Program-made: the position numbers and the translations under genes
The notes under the pieces: generated by a model
Seen by the model: only the letters and a program-made list of their open reading frames with translations
Told to the model about the DNA's origin: nothing
The model's database searches: none
Source: a virus
Strand: one strand, 5' to 3'
Virus record (IMG/VR): IMGVR_UViG_3300050821_006746
Coordinates: 45,142-109,141 of that record
DNA: 64,000 bases
Shown: one piece after another, positions 8,426 through 30,646 of the stretch
Numbering within the stretch: position 1 is the first letter of the stretch
How the letters are laid out: every line of letters begins with the position of its first letter

Positions 8426-8643
8426 CGCTGGCTAATGATAACAGCGACCCGCCATTGGTTGGCACCCTACGCGGGCCGTAAAACAAACTGAACCGCCAGG
8501 CAACGTGTTCAGCGTTGTCTAGAGGCTACGTGCGCCTTGTGATAGGCACATTGTTCATTTTACCTGATTGAACAAAGGAATGCAAGGATGGTAGCGAAAT
8601 CGTGACGAATATTCCAGCAAATCAAAAATCATTGTCTTACCCC
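8426..8643. other. Non-coding gap
   Basis: No convincing gene. It contains TGGCTAATG (8429-8437), TTGTTCA (8551-8557) paired with TGAACAA (8569-8575), and GCAAGGATGGTAGCG (8582-8596), a 15-mer that recurs at 10017-10031 and resembles the 3' end of the gene ending at 8994. This may be debris of duplicated coding sequence. Confidence 0.5.
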
Positions 8644-8677
8644 TTGACATTTGCGTTCGTATCGAATACAATACGAA
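8644..8677 (+). promoter_or_regulatory. Near-consensus sigma70 promoter with inverted-repeat operator
   Basis: TTGACA (8644-8649), 17-bp spacer, TACAAT (8667-8672). TTCGTAT (8656-8662) and ATACGAA (8671-8677) form an inverted repeat over the spacer and -10, so repressor control is likely. Drives the gene at 8713 and probably the methyltransferase and replication genes beyond. Confidence 0.82.
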
Positions 8678-8712
8678 TATCAAGTAGTAAACAAACACAA
8701 AGGAGAAAGACA

Positions 8713-8994
8713 ATGAACGATCAAGTATACACACAGATGCTTAAAGATGTCACCACAGAGGTCAATTTTGAGAAGGCTTGCGAGATGCTAACGCAGATCC
8801 ATCAGGAGTGTGATTGTCGCACCACTGAGTACTACGGTGGCAAACGCACACAACGCTCCATCAAGAGCCGCGCCTTTGTCTGTGCCGCAAACACTGTGCG
8901 CTGGAATTTCCATAAGTTCGTCACGATGTCAAAAAATGGCCGCTACGAAGTGAACGAGCGCAATCAGCGCATTCAAGACAGGCAGGGATGGTAA
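8713..8994 (+). CDS. Hypothetical protein (93 aa)
   Basis: Starts after AAGGAGAAAGACA, downstream of a strong promoter. Helical N-terminus, a CDC element near residue 35 and a basic segment (KRTQRSIKSR). It ends QGW-stop, like short frames at 8578 and 9979. TAATG overlap with the next gene. Confidence 0.72.
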   Translation: MNDQVYTQMLKDVTTEVNFEKACEMLTQIHQECDCRTTEYYGGKRTQRSIKSRAFVCAANTVRWNFHKFVTMSKNGRYEVNERNQRIQDRQGW

Positions 8995-9191
8995 TGGAAA
9001 AGAAACGCGGTGGACAGGAAGGCAACAAGAACGCTAAGCGGGCAAAACATCCCCGCTTAGCAGTCAGTTATTCGGGTGATCTCCTCGATTTAGCCTATGA
9101 AAAGTTGGCAGATCAAGGGAATACTGCACCTACAGAGGATCAAATAAAGGATTTTATCCGCGCAATGACAAGGAAGGGATTGGAGCAATGA
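8994..9191 (+). CDS. Hypothetical basic protein (65 aa)
   Basis: The ATG at 8994 overlaps the previous stop (TAATG); an ATG six bases upstream is the alternative. The N-terminus KRGGQEGNKNAKRAKH resembles the GxxKGNKNA head seen on phage DNA-associated proteins. Coupled by ATGA to the cytosine methyltransferase, so possibly a partner of it. Confidence 0.65.
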   Translation: MEKKRGGQEGNKNAKRAKHPRLAVSYSGDLLDLAYEKLADQGNTAPTEDQIKDFIRAMTRKGLEQ

Positions 9192-9946
9192 AACCATTCA
9201 CCTTTGGCTCACTTTTCTCTGGCGTTGGTGGTATTGATTTAGGCTTGGAGCGGGCTGGTATGCAGTGCGCTTGGCAGGTGGAGATAGATGATTATGCAAC
9301 AAAAGTACTTGAAAAACAGTGGCCCAATGTTACCCGGTTTCGAGACGTGCGAACCGTTGGAAAACGCAACCTGCCAACAGTTGACCTTCTGGCAGGTGGA
9401 TTCCCCTGCCAACCTCATAGTCTCAATGGCAAAAGAAAAGCCAGCGAAGACGAACGCGATCTCTGGCCAGAATTTCGCCGGCTTATTTGCGAGCTTAAAC
9501 CCGCTTGGGTGTTGGCTGAAAACGTCATGGGGCTACTTAGTTCAGAAAATGGTCACTTCTTCGGCGGCATTCTCAGGGACTTGGCCGCGCTCAGGTATGA
9601 TGCACAATGGCAAGTGCTACCAGCTTCCTCCTTTGGCGCACCACACCGAAGAGAAAGAGTCTTCATTGTGGCCTACCCTCAGAGCCTCTATGTGGAAAAA
9701 TCGCAAATGGTCCAATCACAGAAAAGACCACCATTTCAATTTGGAAGAATATCTTCCAACGATTTATCCAGAAATCAATGGAAAACCAATCAACCCTCAT
9801 TTTCTGGAATGGATGATGGGATTCCCTATTGGGTGGACAGAAGTAAGGGACTCGGAAACGCAGTTGTTCCACAAATAGCAGAGAGCATTGCTTATCGCAT
9901 TCTCATGGCAGATGCAGCAAGCAAGGATGAAACGGAAGTAGCATAA
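9188..9946 (+). CDS. DNA C5-cytosine methyltransferase (252 aa)
   Basis: All main motifs are present in order: I (FSGVGGIDLGLERAG, 10-24), IV with catalytic C74 in PCQPHS, VI ENV at 111-113, VIII (PASSFGAPHRRER, 145-157), a short target-recognition region (about 165-220) and motif X (GLGNAVVPQIAE). It would methylate cytosine C5 from S-adenosylmethionine, probably protecting the phage from restriction. The recognition region is short, typical of compact phage enzymes; no restriction partner is nearby. Another long frame (9327-9878) overlaps it on the same strand and is listed separately. Confidence 0.95.
   Translation: MKPFTFGSLFSGVGGIDLGLERAGMQCAWQVEIDDYATKVLEKQWPNVTRFRDVRTVGKRNLPTVDLLAGGFPCQPHSLNGKRKASEDERDLWPEFRRLICELKPAWVLAENVMGLLSSENGHFFGGILRDLAALRYDAQWQVLPASSFGAPHRRERVFIVAYPQSLYVEKSQMVQSQKRPPFQFGRISSNDLSRNQWKTNQPSFSGMDDGIPYWVDRSKGLGNAVVPQIAESIAYRILMADAASKDETEVA
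9327..9878 (+). CDS. Overlapping frame inside the cytosine methyltransferase gene (183 aa)
   Basis: Uninterrupted frame wholly inside the methyltransferase gene, same strand. The product starts MLPGFETCEPLE and contains GTWPRSGMMHNGKCYQLPPL, SSLWPT and a C-terminal NPHFLEWMMGFPIGWTE. From memory these blocks match a phage protein often found next to, or fused with, C5 methyltransferases. The block near WPRSGMM is the alternate reading of motif VIII. Either this is true dual coding or the family itself reflects out-of-frame reading of methyltransferase genes. A start at 9288 is also possible. No clear ribosome site. Confidence 0.45.
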   Translation: MLPGFETCEPLENATCQQLTFWQVDSPANLIVSMAKEKPAKTNAISGQNFAGLFASLNPLGCWLKTSWGYLVQKMVTSSAAFSGTWPRSGMMHNGKCYQLPPLAHHTEEKESSLWPTLRASMWKNRKWSNHRKDHHFNLEEYLPTIYPEINGKPINPHFLEWMMGFPIGWTEVRDSETQLFHK

Positions 9947-9978
9947 CCTGGCAGTGCCAGTAATATAGAGGTTTGATT

Positions 9979-10029
9979 ATGGCACAAGTAGCACGACCAC
10001 AAGAGGGCAAAGAAAAGCAAGGATGGTAG
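9979..10029 (+). CDS. Possible leader peptide (16 aa)
   Basis: ATG after TAGAGGTTTGATT; the product ends KQGW-stop. It lies between the methyltransferase and the HNH gene, and its 3' end is the 15-mer repeated at 8582. It may be a translational leader for the HNH gene or a remnant. Confidence 0.3.
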   Translation: MAQVARPQEGKEKQGW

Positions 10030-10032
10030 CGC

Positions 10033-10659
10033 ATGTACGAGAAATCTTACCAAGCCTGGAAAGAGTTTAAGGAAAAGCTCTATGGAAAATCTAAGGAGCA
10101 ATTCGAGGATGCAACGCCAGAAGAAAAGCGGGCGTTGCTAGACAAGATGAATGCTTCTGACGATGAACAGATACAGCAGAAAGAGATAGAGCTAAATGAG
10201 CTATTTAGCAAAATGCAAGATCTTACTCAGGAAATAGCTCGTTTAACGGAATATTCAACAGGACATCAAGTTAGGATCATTCAACACGCCACAAGTGCTC
10301 TCAATAATTTTGTTCGCAATGGCATCCCCGATATGTTCCATTTTCCACGAGAAGACATGGACAAAATTATTCGCGCCATAGAGCAGGATCGTCGTACTCA
10401 GGCGCAAAGAGAAACGCTTGAGGGAATGCCGTATGATGCCTATCTGAAAACAGAGGCATGGCAAATAAGGCGTTCACAGGCTCTCAAAGACGCCAAGAAT
10501 AGGTGTCAGTTATGTTACAGTACAAAACTTCTCAATGTCCACCACAAGACCTATGAGCGGCGCGGACACGAACTGCCAGAGGATTTGATTGTACTCTGCA
10601 ACGATTGTCACGCAAAACATCACGACAAAATTGGCAAAAAGAATTCATGGAATTTTTAG
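10033..10659 (+). CDS. HNH endonuclease with coiled-coil N-terminus (208 aa)
   Basis: Residues 1-90 are highly charged and predicted coiled coil (QQKEIELNELFSKMQDLTQEI). The C-terminal 75 residues form an HNH/zinc unit: CQLC, then LNVHHKTYERRGHE with the catalytic His pair, LIVLCNDCH and KHHDK. It resembles phage HNH proteins of the EAWQIRRSQAL type. Position between methyltransferase and initiator suggests a free-standing nuclease rather than a packaging HNH, which would sit beside terminase. It lacks the leader RNA seen on other nuclease genes here. Confidence 0.85.
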   Translation: MYEKSYQAWKEFKEKLYGKSKEQFEDATPEEKRALLDKMNASDDEQIQQKEIELNELFSKMQDLTQEIARLTEYSTGHQVRIIQHATSALNNFVRNGIPDMFHFPREDMDKIIRAIEQDRRTQAQRETLEGMPYDAYLKTEAWQIRRSQALKDAKNRCQLCYSTKLLNVHHKTYERRGHELPEDLIVLCNDCHAKHHDKIGKKNSWNF

Positions 10660-26768: not shown

Positions 26769-26900
26769 TTACTCTATGCCGAGCAATGCGGCCAATTGAT
26801 CGCCATGCTTGTTCTCTGCTCGTTTCAGACTTGCCAGATAGCGGCCTGTGGTTGCGAGTGATTTAATACATGTTATCCGTTTTACCGGCTTCCAGTTCAT
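26769..26900 (-). CDS. Small helical protein overlapping the integrase 3' end (43 aa)
   Basis: A frame that begins MNWKPVKRITCIKS inside the last 38 bases of the integrase gene and ends GDQLAALLGIE-stop at 26769. The amino-acid sequence is helix-like and unlike random translation. No ribosome site seen, so it could be translationally coupled, a remnant, or a frameshifted extension of the integrase. Confidence 0.4.
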   Translation of the reverse strand: MNWKPVKRITCIKSLATTGRYLASLKRAENKHGDQLAALLGIE

Positions 26901-27798
26901 CTAGTACATAATGGTCTACGGTTGTTTGTATTCTTTTGTGCCTTAAAGCTTTTTGGGCGAGTCTGATATCTTCTTTGGCTAAGATCGTGCCTACGAAGCG
27001 CCGAAAGTCATGCGGCTTAATATGCTCCAATTCACAACGACTGGCGTACTTTTGCACTGCATTCCAGATTGCTTGAGGTGTGATTGGTTTAAGGAGTATT
27101 TTTTCTCCTCTGCCCGTGAATGACGTAAAGATGTATTCGCATTCTATTGGACGTGCTATAAGCCATGCTGTTATGGATGTGTGCGCCTCTTTGCTCAGGA
27201 AGGCGCTTACTGGCTTGATCTCGTTCTTGCCGCGTACTTTCAGCACATAGCCACCTTCTTGCTCCTCTATCTGGCTTTGTTTGAGTGTTGCCAGTTCGCT
27301 AGCTCGTATGCCAGAACTGGCAAGGGTATGGAGTAGAGCGCGGTCACGCAATCCTACCAGTGTAGCCGTGTTTGGCATCTCGCAGAGACGGCGCATATCC
27401 TCTGGTTTGATGCGAGTTCTAGCGTGTGGTTTGAGTTTGTCAGGATCGATCTTGACGCCTTCAATGTCTCTGAACTCTTCATAGATGGACCTGTCAATGA
27501 GTTTTCGTTTTTGAGCCTCTTTTATTATGCGTTTGATTGCTGACATCATACGATTGATCGTGTTGCTACTTTTGAAGGTTCCATCCTCTTGAGGCGTTAG
27601 AAGCATCCAATCGCGCCACTCTCGCATGGTTTGCGCGTCCATAATGTCTAGCTCTTTCTCTGATGCGAAATGCTGATAACTAGAAATGGAGTACTTGTAC
27701 ATTTTAATAGAAGAGTCAGCCAGATCATAGGTGAGCCAGTTTTGTAAATTCTGGCTCACTGTATGGAGTGCGCTGTGTGGTACAAGTTGCCGATCCAT
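26863..27798 (-). CDS. int: Tyrosine recombinase / phage integrase (311 aa)
   Basis: N-terminal SAM-like core-binding domain (about 15-125) and C-terminal catalytic domain with SSGIRASELATLK (first catalytic Arg), a mid Lys, KPHDFRRFVGT (His-x-x-Arg), LRHKRIQTTVDHY (second His and the tyrosine nucleophile). It would integrate and, with an excisionase, excise the phage genome. Start by TAATG overlap with the endonuclease VII-like gene and the preceding AGGAGGAAG; an extension upstream to 27891 would lie inside that gene. Two excisionase-like proteins (3992, 20439) are candidates for Xis. The partial direction-of-transcription pattern fits a lysogeny-side operon. Confidence 0.95.
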   Translation of the reverse strand: MDRQLVPHSALHTVSQNLQNWLTYDLADSSIKMYKYSISSYQHFASEKELDIMDAQTMREWRDWMLLTPQEDGTFKSSNTINRMMSAIKRIIKEAQKRKLIDRSIYEEFRDIEGVKIDPDKLKPHARTRIKPEDMRRLCEMPNTATLVGLRDRALLHTLASSGIRASELATLKQSQIEEQEGGYVLKVRGKNEIKPVSAFLSKEAHTSITAWLIARPIECEYIFTSFTGRGEKILLKPITPQAIWNAVQKYASRCELEHIKPHDFRRFVGTILAKEDIRLAQKALRHKRIQTTVDHYVLDELEAGKTDNMY

Positions 27799-28277
27799 TA
27801 AACTTCCTCCTGTACGTAGCTCTCGATATACTGCAAAAGTGATTTTACTCTTTCCGGTTTTTCTTCCAGCAAACCAAGAGCCTGATTGCATGCACTACAT
27901 AGCAAGCCTCTGACTCTTCCTGTGGTATGGCAGTGATCGACATGGAGCATAGGAATACGGTTTATTGTGCGCTTGCTTCTACCCGCATTATTGGTTTCTG
28001 GTTTTCCACAACAAGCGCATACACCGCTCTGCCCTTCTAGCATCCTCTCGTAGTCCTCTAGGTTAATGCCATATGCAACTCGAAGTTGTGCATCCTTCAT
28101 TTTTCGGTAGTCGTATGATGCGTGTTTATGTGATGCAACGCAGACCTTACACCACGACTCTACCCCAAATGCTTTCTTGGGAGCAGGTGAATACTCAGAT
28201 AGATTTTTGTGTTCTTTGCATCTCGAACATAGTTTTCTTCCCAGAGCATCTAATTCAACGCGCTGACCTCTTGCCAT
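27798..28277 (-). CDS. Endonuclease VII-like HNH nuclease (159 aa)
   Basis: Recombination endonuclease VII family: N-terminal zinc head CSRCKEHKNLSEY, then YGINLEDYERMLEGQSGVC, CACCGKPE, catalytic LHVDHCHTTGRVRGLLCSACNQALGL. T4 endonuclease VII resolves Holliday junctions; small free-standing relatives in phages can behave like homing nucleases. It is read from its own strong promoter and its stop overlaps the integrase start (TAATG), so integrase expression depends on it. Confidence 0.9.
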   Translation of the reverse strand: MARGQRVELDALGRKLCSRCKEHKNLSEYSPAPKKAFGVESWCKVCVASHKHASYDYRKMKDAQLRVAYGINLEDYERMLEGQSGVCACCGKPETNNAGRSKRTINRIPMLHVDHCHTTGRVRGLLCSACNQALGLLEEKPERVKSLLQYIESYVQEEV

Positions 28278-28341: not shown

Positions 28342-28370
28342 ATTATAGCAGATCATACCCCACTTGTCCA
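28342..28370 (-). promoter_or_regulatory. Promoter of endonuclease VII-integrase operon
   Basis: Minus strand: TGGACA (28370-28365), 17-bp spacer, extended -10 TGcTATAAT (hexamer 28347-28342). The leader before the ATG at 28277 can form the stem ATAGG/CCTAT, then AAGGAAG as ribosome site. It probably drives all minus genes down to 24055. Confidence 0.85.
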
Positions 28371-28492: not shown

Positions 28493-28771
28493 ATGCAAGA
28501 ATATTCAGACTTTATCGAGCAAATAGTAGCGGCAATGAAACCGCTCATTGGTAGCATCGAAACAAGCGAGGTCAGGAAGTACGGATTGGAAGCGGCTTCT
28601 GTTGTATATGATAGGCTGATCCCTCATTGGAATACTGGCGGCGGTTCTGGTATGCCTAACCCACAGGTAACGCCAAAGGAGGTGGCTGTAGCAGAGACGT
28701 TCACTAAGGCTTGCCACAAATTGCAACTTACCGTGGAGCATGAGGTGAACATGATGCACAAGGCTGGCTAA
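28493..28771 (+). CDS. Hypothetical protein (92 aa), monocistronic
   Basis: The start after AGAGGAGTAAAT is preferred over upstream in-frame ATGs that lie before the promoter. Helical protein with a Gly-rich turn (NTGGGSGMPNPQ) and C-terminal helix. It has its own promoter and terminator next to the integrase operon, so it could be a lysogeny-associated function; no family recognised. Confidence 0.68.
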   Translation: MQEYSDFIEQIVAAMKPLIGSIETSEVRKYGLEAASVVYDRLIPHWNTGGGSGMPNPQVTPKEVAVAETFTKACHKLQLTVEHEVNMMHKAG

Positions 28772-28794
28772 GGATTAACCTCTAGACAATACGA

Positions 28795-28827
28795 GAGCGC
28801 TGAGCAGGTAGCCAGCGCTCTTTGTTT
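28795..28827 (+). terminator. Intrinsic terminator
   Basis: GAGCGCTG (28795-28802) and CAGCGCTC (28813-28820), then TTTGTTT. Ends the 28493 gene. Confidence 0.85.
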
Positions 28828-28835
28828 GCTCGTTA

Positions 28836-29072
28836 TGCTATAATCGTCACGTGGTCCCCAATCCACGAAGCTAACAGTGAGGGATGTTGACGATAGATGC
28901 TCGTCCTGCAAGTTGAACATCAATCAGTCAACATCCTCGTCGGAATGGTTCACCATCGGCGTAAGAGGTACGGTATAGCCGCTAAGTATCTGGTACTCAC
29001 TCCAGTAAACCTCGCAAAAAGAGCACGACCTATGCATCCTTCGGGATAGCGGGTAACGCGCTCTTTTTGTTT
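28836..29072 (+). ncRNA. Predicted structured small RNA, about 220 nt
   Basis: Extended -10 TGcTATAAT (hexamer 28839-28844) is followed by no plausible reading frame but by ordered stems: CGTGG/CCACG (28850-28854 with 28863-28867) right at the expected 5' end; a long helix pairing 28879-28891 with 28927-28938 (12 pairs, one bulged G); ATCC-UUCG-GGAT (28036+1000 region, 29036-29047); and a terminator, AAAAAGAGC (29016-29024) with GCTCTTTTT (29060-29068). Promoter, internal stems, a stable UUCG loop and terminator together indicate a dedicated RNA gene. It is not 6S, tmRNA or RNase P as far as can be recognised. Confidence 0.7.
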
Positions 29073-29089
29073 GATTGACAGTCGTGATA

Positions 29090-29337
29090 GCATATATTTG
29101 GTTCACCTGTATGCAAATGGTAAGCATAGGGTCGCGCCCAAGATTGCAGGTTTCGATCCCTGGCAGGTGCATTGCTCACCTGCCATGTGCAGGAAGAGCA
29201 ACGGTGTCGCTACTAAGGGACAAGCGAAGTGTACATGCGCCCCAACCAACGACGCTAGCAAACGACCTCTTGTAGAGGGAAGTGCTCTCAGCAGAGTGAG
29301 AGGATAGCACCGGAGAATTAACTAGCTCCGGTGCTAT
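29090..29337 (+). ncRNA. Second predicted structured RNA with tRNA-like 5' part
   Basis: Bases about 29099-29174 resemble a decayed tRNA: acceptor-like CACCTG/CAGGTG, a D-arm ATGC-AAATGGTAA-GCAT and a T-arm-like AGG-TTTCGATC-CCT. The anticodon arm does not pair, so a translating tRNA is unlikely. Next come GGCAGGTG/CACCTGCC (competing with the acceptor stem), CATGT/ACATG enclosing TCGCT/AGCGA, CCTCTTGTAGAGG, CTCTC/GAGAG, and a perfect 12-bp terminator stem with T-run. No open frame fits. It may be a regulatory RNA or carry a tRNA-derived attachment site. Confidence 0.5.
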
Positions 29338-29348
29338 TTTTGTTTTTT
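29304..29348 (+). terminator. Strong intrinsic terminator
   Basis: ATAGCACCGGAG (29304-29315) and CTCCGGTGCTAT (29326-29337), 12 perfect pairs, followed by TTTTTGTTTTTTT. Confidence 0.95.
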
Positions 29349-29429: not shown

Positions 29430-29790
29430 TGTAATAGCGCAAGTATCATTGATGGGATTATCTGTGATTTGCAGACCTCTTTGGCAAAATCCGGCGATAT
29501 ATGCTTCACAGAAGCATCGGCGCAACATACTTCATAAACCATGTTGGTGCTGAATATACCCGCTCAGACCCCTTCCAGGCTTATCTGACGTGTATCAAAT
29601 TGAAAGAAAGCCAAGATATTCTTGGCTTTCTCAGACAGGCGGTTCTATTGAAAAGGTTGCTCGGACTGCGGCAAGATATGCATCACAGGGCCATTCTGAT
29701 ATATCCCACACAAACCAAAATACATCCTTTACAAGTGACCATTTTGGGCCTATAATACAAAGTGTTGTGACCGAAAATGGTCACTTATCA
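29426..29790 (-). pseudogene. Decayed minus-strand coding region
   Basis: No long frame, yet several adjoining pieces read like protein: KDVFWFVWDISEWPCDAYLA (ending about 29642), continuing after a frameshift as LSEKAKNILAFFQF, then a stop, then MVYEVCCADASVKHISPDF (29542-29426) joined by ATGA to MTHQEF. The simplest reading is one or two genes broken by frameshifts and stops. The region also contains ATGCTTC/GAAGCAT (29501-29507, 29511-29517). Confidence 0.45.
29728..29786 (+). promoter_or_regulatory. Sigma70 promoter enclosed by 13-bp inverted repeats
   Basis: TTTACA (29728-29733), 17-bp spacer, TATAAT (29751-29756). AAGTGACCATTTT (29733-29745) overlaps the spacer and its perfect inverse AAAATGGTCACTT (29774-29786) lies downstream of the start point. 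Two half-sites bound together would trap or loop the promoter; in RNA only the right arm is present. Confidence 0.85.
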
Positions 29791-29807
29791 AGAAAGGGAT
29801 ATGTGAT

Positions 29808-30305
29808 ATGACCCAAAAACAATGGCTGATGGAGCATGAGCATCTCTGGGATCTTGTGTTTGCTCTGGGAACAGAAATCGAGCGGATAAAGGCCAATGAT
29901 GGTGTTGACAGTCTGCATCTGAAAAAGCTGAAAAAACTCCGAGAGCTTTTTCAGGCCATGATCGAGAATGCCGAATGGGAGTACCACGAGGACACTGGAG
30001 AGCGTCACCGGCCCGCAGAGCGGGTGATGATCTCGCTCATCCCACATAGCGACGATTGGTGGTCCGATCCTTACGCTGTGGTCCCTGTTGCGGGCCAAAC
30101 GGCAACCATGGGCAAGCAGCGATGGGCAGTTCTCGAGAAAGGGGCAGGCCGCCCTGTGGGAGAGAAAACCTACTCTCAGAAGACCCACGCCTACCGCGCT
30201 TGTCGCAGGCTCAACGATGCGGCCCGGCAGGCATTTGAGGACAAGCGCGGATGGTTTCCGACTCCTGCCCTGGCTACTGAAGCGGAGAGCAGCCTGGCGC
30301 AGTGA
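29808..30305 (+). CDS. Hypothetical protein with tightly controlled promoter (165 aa)
   Basis: Start after AAGAAAGGGATATGTGAT. N-terminal helical part (MTQKQWLMEHEHLWDLVFALG, heptad LHLKKLKKLRELFQAM), Trp/Asp-rich middle (SDDWWSDPY) and basic C-terminal part with Ala/Arg helix. Higher GC than its surroundings. No family recognised. It stands alone between RNA genes and repeat clusters, so a regulator or a lysogenic-conversion gene is plausible. Confidence 0.75.
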   Translation: MTQKQWLMEHEHLWDLVFALGTEIERIKANDGVDSLHLKKLKKLRELFQAMIENAEWEYHEDTGERHRPAERVMISLIPHSDDWWSDPYAVVPVAGQTATMGKQRWAVLEKGAGRPVGEKTYSQKTHAYRACRRLNDAARQAFEDKRGWFPTPALATEAESSLAQ

Positions 30306-30646
30306 ATTTATGTGAAGCATCTAATGGCCCGTGAAGCATATTTTGGCAGTGAACATTCGGGACAAAAGCATCAAATGCTCTGAAAAGAGAACAAAATGAC
30401 TCACTGCTTCAATATGCTTCACAAATCAGAATCGCTGCCAACATATCCTACAGAAAACCTATTAGCTCGTTAGTGTCAAGCCGCTTCTGGCGTCAAGGCA
30501 CTGCCACGATATGGGTAATAGCCGTTGTCAGAATATGCATAAAATCACATTATCAGTGTTATCGGGGCAGCAGAGAATAGAGATGAAATCGTCGTTCTCC
30601 CTAAATTGCAACTCGCTATCAATGCCGCGTATTGACCATACTCCCA
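30306..30646. repeat. Non-coding region with GTGAAGCATA repeats
   Basis: GTGAAGCAT at 30312-30320 and 30331-30339 and its inverse TATGCTTCAC at 30413-30422; another TATGCTTCAC lies at 29500-29509 in an inverted pair. No convincing gene. Spaced, bidirectional copies suggest protein-binding sites. Other parts show nothing recognisable. Confidence 0.5.

Follow-up and report, generated by a model that had tools for sequence, protein, structure and literature searches.

An orphan candidate for a stand-alone non-coding RNA gene in a large temperate phage

In the window analysed here, a 64,000-nucleotide stretch that forms part of a 109,141-base IMG/VR virus record, positions 28836-29072 may constitute a stand-alone gene for a non-coding RNA in a large temperate phage, an orphan candidate for which we regard the case as evenly balanced. 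An extended -10 promoter, a 5' hairpin, a long hairpin and a terminator stem follow one another in this order, and a stand-alone RNA gene is the best fit to such a succession of promoter, structured stretch without coding signal and terminator. The promoter-like site, the hairpin, the terminator and the lack of coding signal can be read from the window directly, and we infer transcription of 28850-29072. The fold and the function of the candidate RNA are not confirmable from sequence, with no relative in the searched collections. The features considered below are the following (window positions unless stated otherwise):

28836-28844, plus strand: extended -10 promoter TGCTATAAT, identified by sequence; predicted transcription start at about 28850
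28850-28867, plus strand: 5' hairpin CGTGG-TCCCCAAT-CCACG, with a 5-bp stem (28850-28854/28863-28867) of mean pair probability 0.97
28879-28891 with 28927-28938, plus strand: long hairpin GAGGGATGTTGAC/GTCAACATCCTC, with 12 outer pairs, one bulge and 10 inner pairs
28938-29013, plus strand: small hairpins and an alternative closing stem; stability at chance (z = -0.2)
29014-29072, plus strand: terminator-like stem with a UUCG tip, then TTTTTGTTT; z = -4.9, pair probability 0.86-0.99
29098-29345, plus strand: another short non-coding unit, comprising a tRNA-like 5' part and a terminator hairpin and preceded by a promoter-like site; relation to the candidate uncertain
28493-28771, plus strand: upstream gene of 92 aa, codon score +0.18, with a terminator (28794-28821) at its end
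26863-28277, minus strand: endonuclease VII and tyrosine integrase operon (Pfam and PHROGs); promoter near 28350 with 11/12 matches
Record positions 9489-10469 and 8573-9337, outside the window: ParA-type ATPase and divergent GntR/UTRA regulator

The preliminary description of this locus had proposed a promoter at its start, and TGCTATAAT is indeed found there as an extended -10. As the predicted promoter of an intrinsically terminated small-RNA gene, it would consist of the extended -10 and no -35; because no acceptable -35 accompanies it, the site was missing from the list of a sigma-70 two-hexamer scan. The promoter is believable all the same, judging from its sequence, because the same form, TGNTATAAT, stands before other genes of the record, at 28350 (-), 31245 (-) and 48216 (+). 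Across the window, extended -10 sites of this form occur at 28350 (-), 28836 (+), 31245 (-), 48216 (+), 51242 (+) and 60164 (-), several of them directly before genes, and TGNTATAAT is apparently the usual host-type promoter of the phage. The 5' hairpin has its first pair right at the predicted start (about 28850), and its 5-bp stem agrees with the 5' terminal stem described earlier.

At the other end, the terminator stem (29014-29024/29060-29070, pair probability 0.99) ends in TTTTTGTTT. Both a stem and a T run, the usual marks of a terminator, are thus found at 29014-29070 and just after, as had been claimed, and a simple terminator scanner did not list this stem. The UUCG tetraloop hairpin, described before as an element of its own, is present at 29036-29047 as the tip of the terminator stem. 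From the predicted start to the terminator at about 29072, the length comes to the approximately 220 nt originally estimated.

The fold of 28847-29072 is more stable than that of every shuffled sequence (z = -5.4, 0/200; in a second run z = -4.7, 0/500), which supports the candidate. About half of this excess stability is that of the terminator: 29013-29072 alone gives z = -4.9, and the transcript without the terminator gives z = -2.8, with 2 of 500 shuffles as stable. What is left is modest and is owed to the long hairpin alone (28876-28941, z = -3.6), since 28938-29012 is at chance. The 12-pair long-range helix reported previously is present, with one bulged base, and continues inward: the core (28881-28891/28927-28937) is extended by 3+4+3 pairs with pair probabilities of 0.93-1.0, and 28904-28913 forms the apical loop. 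In the full transcript, the middle part adopts two conformations (about 0.7 versus 0.3): a stem 28965-28969/29009-29013 with a probability of about 0.68, and an alternative closing stem, AGTGAG (28876-28881) with CTCACT (28996-29001), with a probability of about 0.28. The strong closing stem seen when the terminator is left out was set aside, as folding the full transcript shows that it came in part from truncating the sequence at 29012. In other words, the notion of a dedicated structured RNA was put too strongly: one hairpin and the terminator are stable; the rest is at chance, and its middle has two competing conformations.

Two open frames cross the region, one of 50 aa on the plus strand (28897-29049) and one of 82 aa on the minus strand (28924-29172), so the earlier statement that there is no reading frame is accurate only in the sense that both have non-coding codon usage. 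Scored against the codon usage of 26 long frames of the same record, they reach -0.11 and -0.13 bits per codon, respectively, and lie among the non-coding values (median -0.08; coding sequence has a median of +0.15). Coding scores are obtained for the 92-aa gene upstream (+0.18) and for the 165-aa gene at 29808. However, the well-supported endonuclease VII gene also scores low (-0.09), and the codon test is therefore not conclusive for short frames.

Searches for relatives and known classes of the candidate returned none. Rfam (release 15, including tRNA, tmRNA, 6S, ROOL, GOLLD, raiA and group I intron) gave no match at the gathering cut-off and, at E up to 5, three implausible chance-level hits to eukaryotic or archaeal families far below it, in line with the earlier failure to recognise a known class. 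No relative of the candidate was detected by BLAST against phage and plasmid records, or by DNA searches of 400 genomes of the presumed host phylum and of 47 genomes of one class, the presumed host class, to which two of the four best genomes by integrase match belong (51% and 41%). Three exact patterns had no matches in IMG/VR. The comparative search with a structure model that had been suggested as a check found no relative when run on the 47 genomes and on nine further virus records; the single-sequence covariance model matched only the candidate itself and its own palindromic reverse strand. Terminase, portal and integrase, used as neighbour-protein probes, led only to loci that are 32-51% identical, and the closest phages found (32-51% identity in single proteins) have no counterpart of the RNA; for the 92-aa and 165-aa neighbour proteins no relatives were found. 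The phage nearest in this neighbourhood, IMGVR_UViG_3300044658_000141 (103 kb), also has endonuclease VII and integrase genes as a pair (49% and 51% identical), and the 4 kb upstream of this pair hold other genes and no RNA counterpart. In the same phage, a domain is about 71% identical over 160 residues to a 608-aa protein near the left end of the record. The empty searches mostly reflect the absence of close relatives, and they neither support nor refute the RNA. As to retron or DGR RNAs, there is no reverse transcriptase among the scanned neighbours and no second copy of the candidate sequence in its own record.

Terminase large and small subunits, portal, tyrosine integrase and endonuclease VII are encoded near the candidate (Pfam, PHROGs), and a ParA-type ATPase, a GntR/UTRA regulator and a UvrD-like helicase elsewhere in the record. 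This gene set is consistent with a large temperate phage that shares features with plasmids, and the element may be a phage-plasmid, given that the ParA-type ATPase and the GntR/UTRA regulator share the record with integrase, terminase and portal. The host is probably a member of Chloroflexota, since the integrase relatives found lie in that phylum (42% identity in a Caldilineaceae MAG, up to 51% in other genomes of the phylum). The candidate had been placed beside the integrase operon; in fact, the divergent gene at 28493-28771, which has no Pfam or PHROG match, and its own terminator (28794-28821) stand in between. The scan lists this terminator-like hairpin for the minus strand, a T run is found on the plus strand as well, and the hairpin would insulate the candidate RNA from the upstream gene. 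The assignment to a lysogeny region keeps a single basis, the integrase about 1 kb away: repressor families are matched by none of the 10 neighbours scanned in PHROGs and by none of those scanned in Pfam. Overall, the preliminary description rests on real features, and the picture it gave is reasonable, though too confident.

Several repeats were noticed around the 165-aa gene. An operator-like 22-base inverted repeat, AAGTGACCATTTT...AAAATGGTCACTT, lies just upstream of it (29727-29792). The sequence ATGCTTCAC or its complement occurs four times within 29498-30422 and five times in the whole 109-kb record, against 0.8 expected, two copies sitting in a 22-base inverted repeat (30331-30352/30401-30422); these copies could possibly be an operator or iteron cluster around the gene. 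A 12-mer, AAATGGTCACTT, shared with 9547, was rejected as a regulatory link, as that copy is inside a long DNA methylase-like open frame.

The candidate shares one 583-base gap with the second unit (29098-29345). The latter is immediately preceded by a promoter-like site (29071-29098) and carries a terminator hairpin of 12 perfect base pairs (29304-29337); without this terminator, its fold is no more stable than chance (z = -0.5), and it has no Rfam match. Its predicted transcript would start at about the first base of a tRNA-like element (29104-29172), in which we noted a 7-bp acceptor CACCTGT/GCAGGTG, a D-loop AATGGTA and a T-loop TTTCGATC. The element has a possible anticodon CGC.

An ordinary spacer between transcription units, with a minor promoter, a chance hairpin, a two-way terminator and no functional RNA product, strikes us as somewhat unlikely. 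It would agree with the chance-level structure outside the hairpin and the terminator, with the lack of conservation in the 400 phylum and 47 class genomes, and with our own arithmetic, by which about two perfect 10-bp helices with such loops are expected per 64 kb by chance. Nor is 28836-29072 unique within the record, where z falls below -5 in about 20 windows of 160 nt and 28 gaps between genes are longer than 250 nt, so that gaps of similar size and equally stable windows are many. However, a random spacer would not need so much order as an extended -10 exactly before a 5' hairpin with a strong terminator some 220 nt on, and the succession of two such units in one gap shifts the balance somewhat from an idle spacer towards an RNA locus.

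If both units are taken together, they might be a stable-RNA locus, the remnant of a phage tRNA cluster or a divergent one, whose second unit holds a degenerate tRNA. The combination of acceptor stem, D-loop and T-loop is rare, occurring a single time in the 109-kb record and a single time among 150 randomised ones, and ROOL and GOLLD are often near tRNA islands (PMC12286853). We nevertheless consider this reading improbable: the geometry of the scan (4-bp T stem, 8-nt loop) was fitted to the element itself, which two stricter versions did not find; the element has a poor anticodon stem and lacks an encoded CCA; neither ARAGORN nor Rfam accepts it as a tRNA, the likeness being partial; tRNA and tmRNA hits at relaxed ARAGORN thresholds are as frequent in shuffles and amount to noise; and the record has no other tRNA gene. 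Bolder still, and very improbable in our estimate, is a new class of phage non-coding RNA in a Chloroflexota phage-plasmid, with two neighbouring RNAs, each with its own start and terminator (one with several hairpins, the other with a tRNA-like head), acting on host translation or defence. The least probable reading is a DNA site, either attP or a protein-binding region, with the inverted repeat GTTGAC...GTCAAC or the tRNA-like 3' half recognised by the integrase or a regulator. The integrase gene is about 1 kb away, and tRNA 3' halves commonly serve as attachment sites. However, none of the 47 genomes from the presumed host class contains the tRNA-like 3' half (24 nt, up to three mismatches), GTTGAC is no more frequent in the record than expected (50 occurrences against 53), and the skew extremes are located elsewhere.

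If the stand-alone RNA gene is real, host RNA polymerase would start at about 28850 from the extended -10 promoter and stop at the terminator near 29072, and the resulting transcript of about 220 nt would be protected by hairpins at both ends. It would most likely be a regulatory RNA, and its function is a speculative guess: the exposed apical loop (28904-28913) and the single-stranded 28868-28878 might pair with phage or host RNA, or bind a protein. Pairing with phage gene starts was not beyond that of shuffles (10 of 40 as good). A match of the apical loop region (28895-28910) to 29830-29845, 81% complementary over 16 positions, was discarded as chance, being one of 41 such pairs in 4.5 kb.

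For now, this is a candidate without family or target, and of modest interest as long as neither a transcript nor a relative has turned up. Should it prove to be transcribed, a phage that its nearest relatives link to Chloroflexota would have a small-RNA gene, from which one could begin to ask how phages of this kind control lysogeny; the phages of this phylum are, to our knowledge, little studied. Among known systems, the phage-plasmids P1, P7 and N15 have c4-type antisense RNAs. These RNAs resemble the candidate as small RNAs whose phage has a ParA-type partition gene as well, whereas the candidate is without a strong complementary partner nearby, the inverted matches within 4.5 kb being short and imperfect. 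ROOL and GOLLD, two large phage RNAs whose function is unknown and which are often found close to tRNA islands (PMC12286853), are likewise structured; however, they far exceed the candidate in size (over 800 nt for many GOLLD, against about 220 nt) and are ornate and conserved, and the candidate has no Rfam family. The usual size of prokaryotic sRNAs is 50-550 nt, and phage-encoded small regulatory RNAs include PreS of lambda and VpdS of VP882 (PMC12197685). For these two, transcripts and Hfq binding have been shown, whereas the candidate is known from sequence alone and the pairing search was negative; what it has in common with them is that they are phage-encoded small RNA genes, the known general kind to which the candidate would belong.
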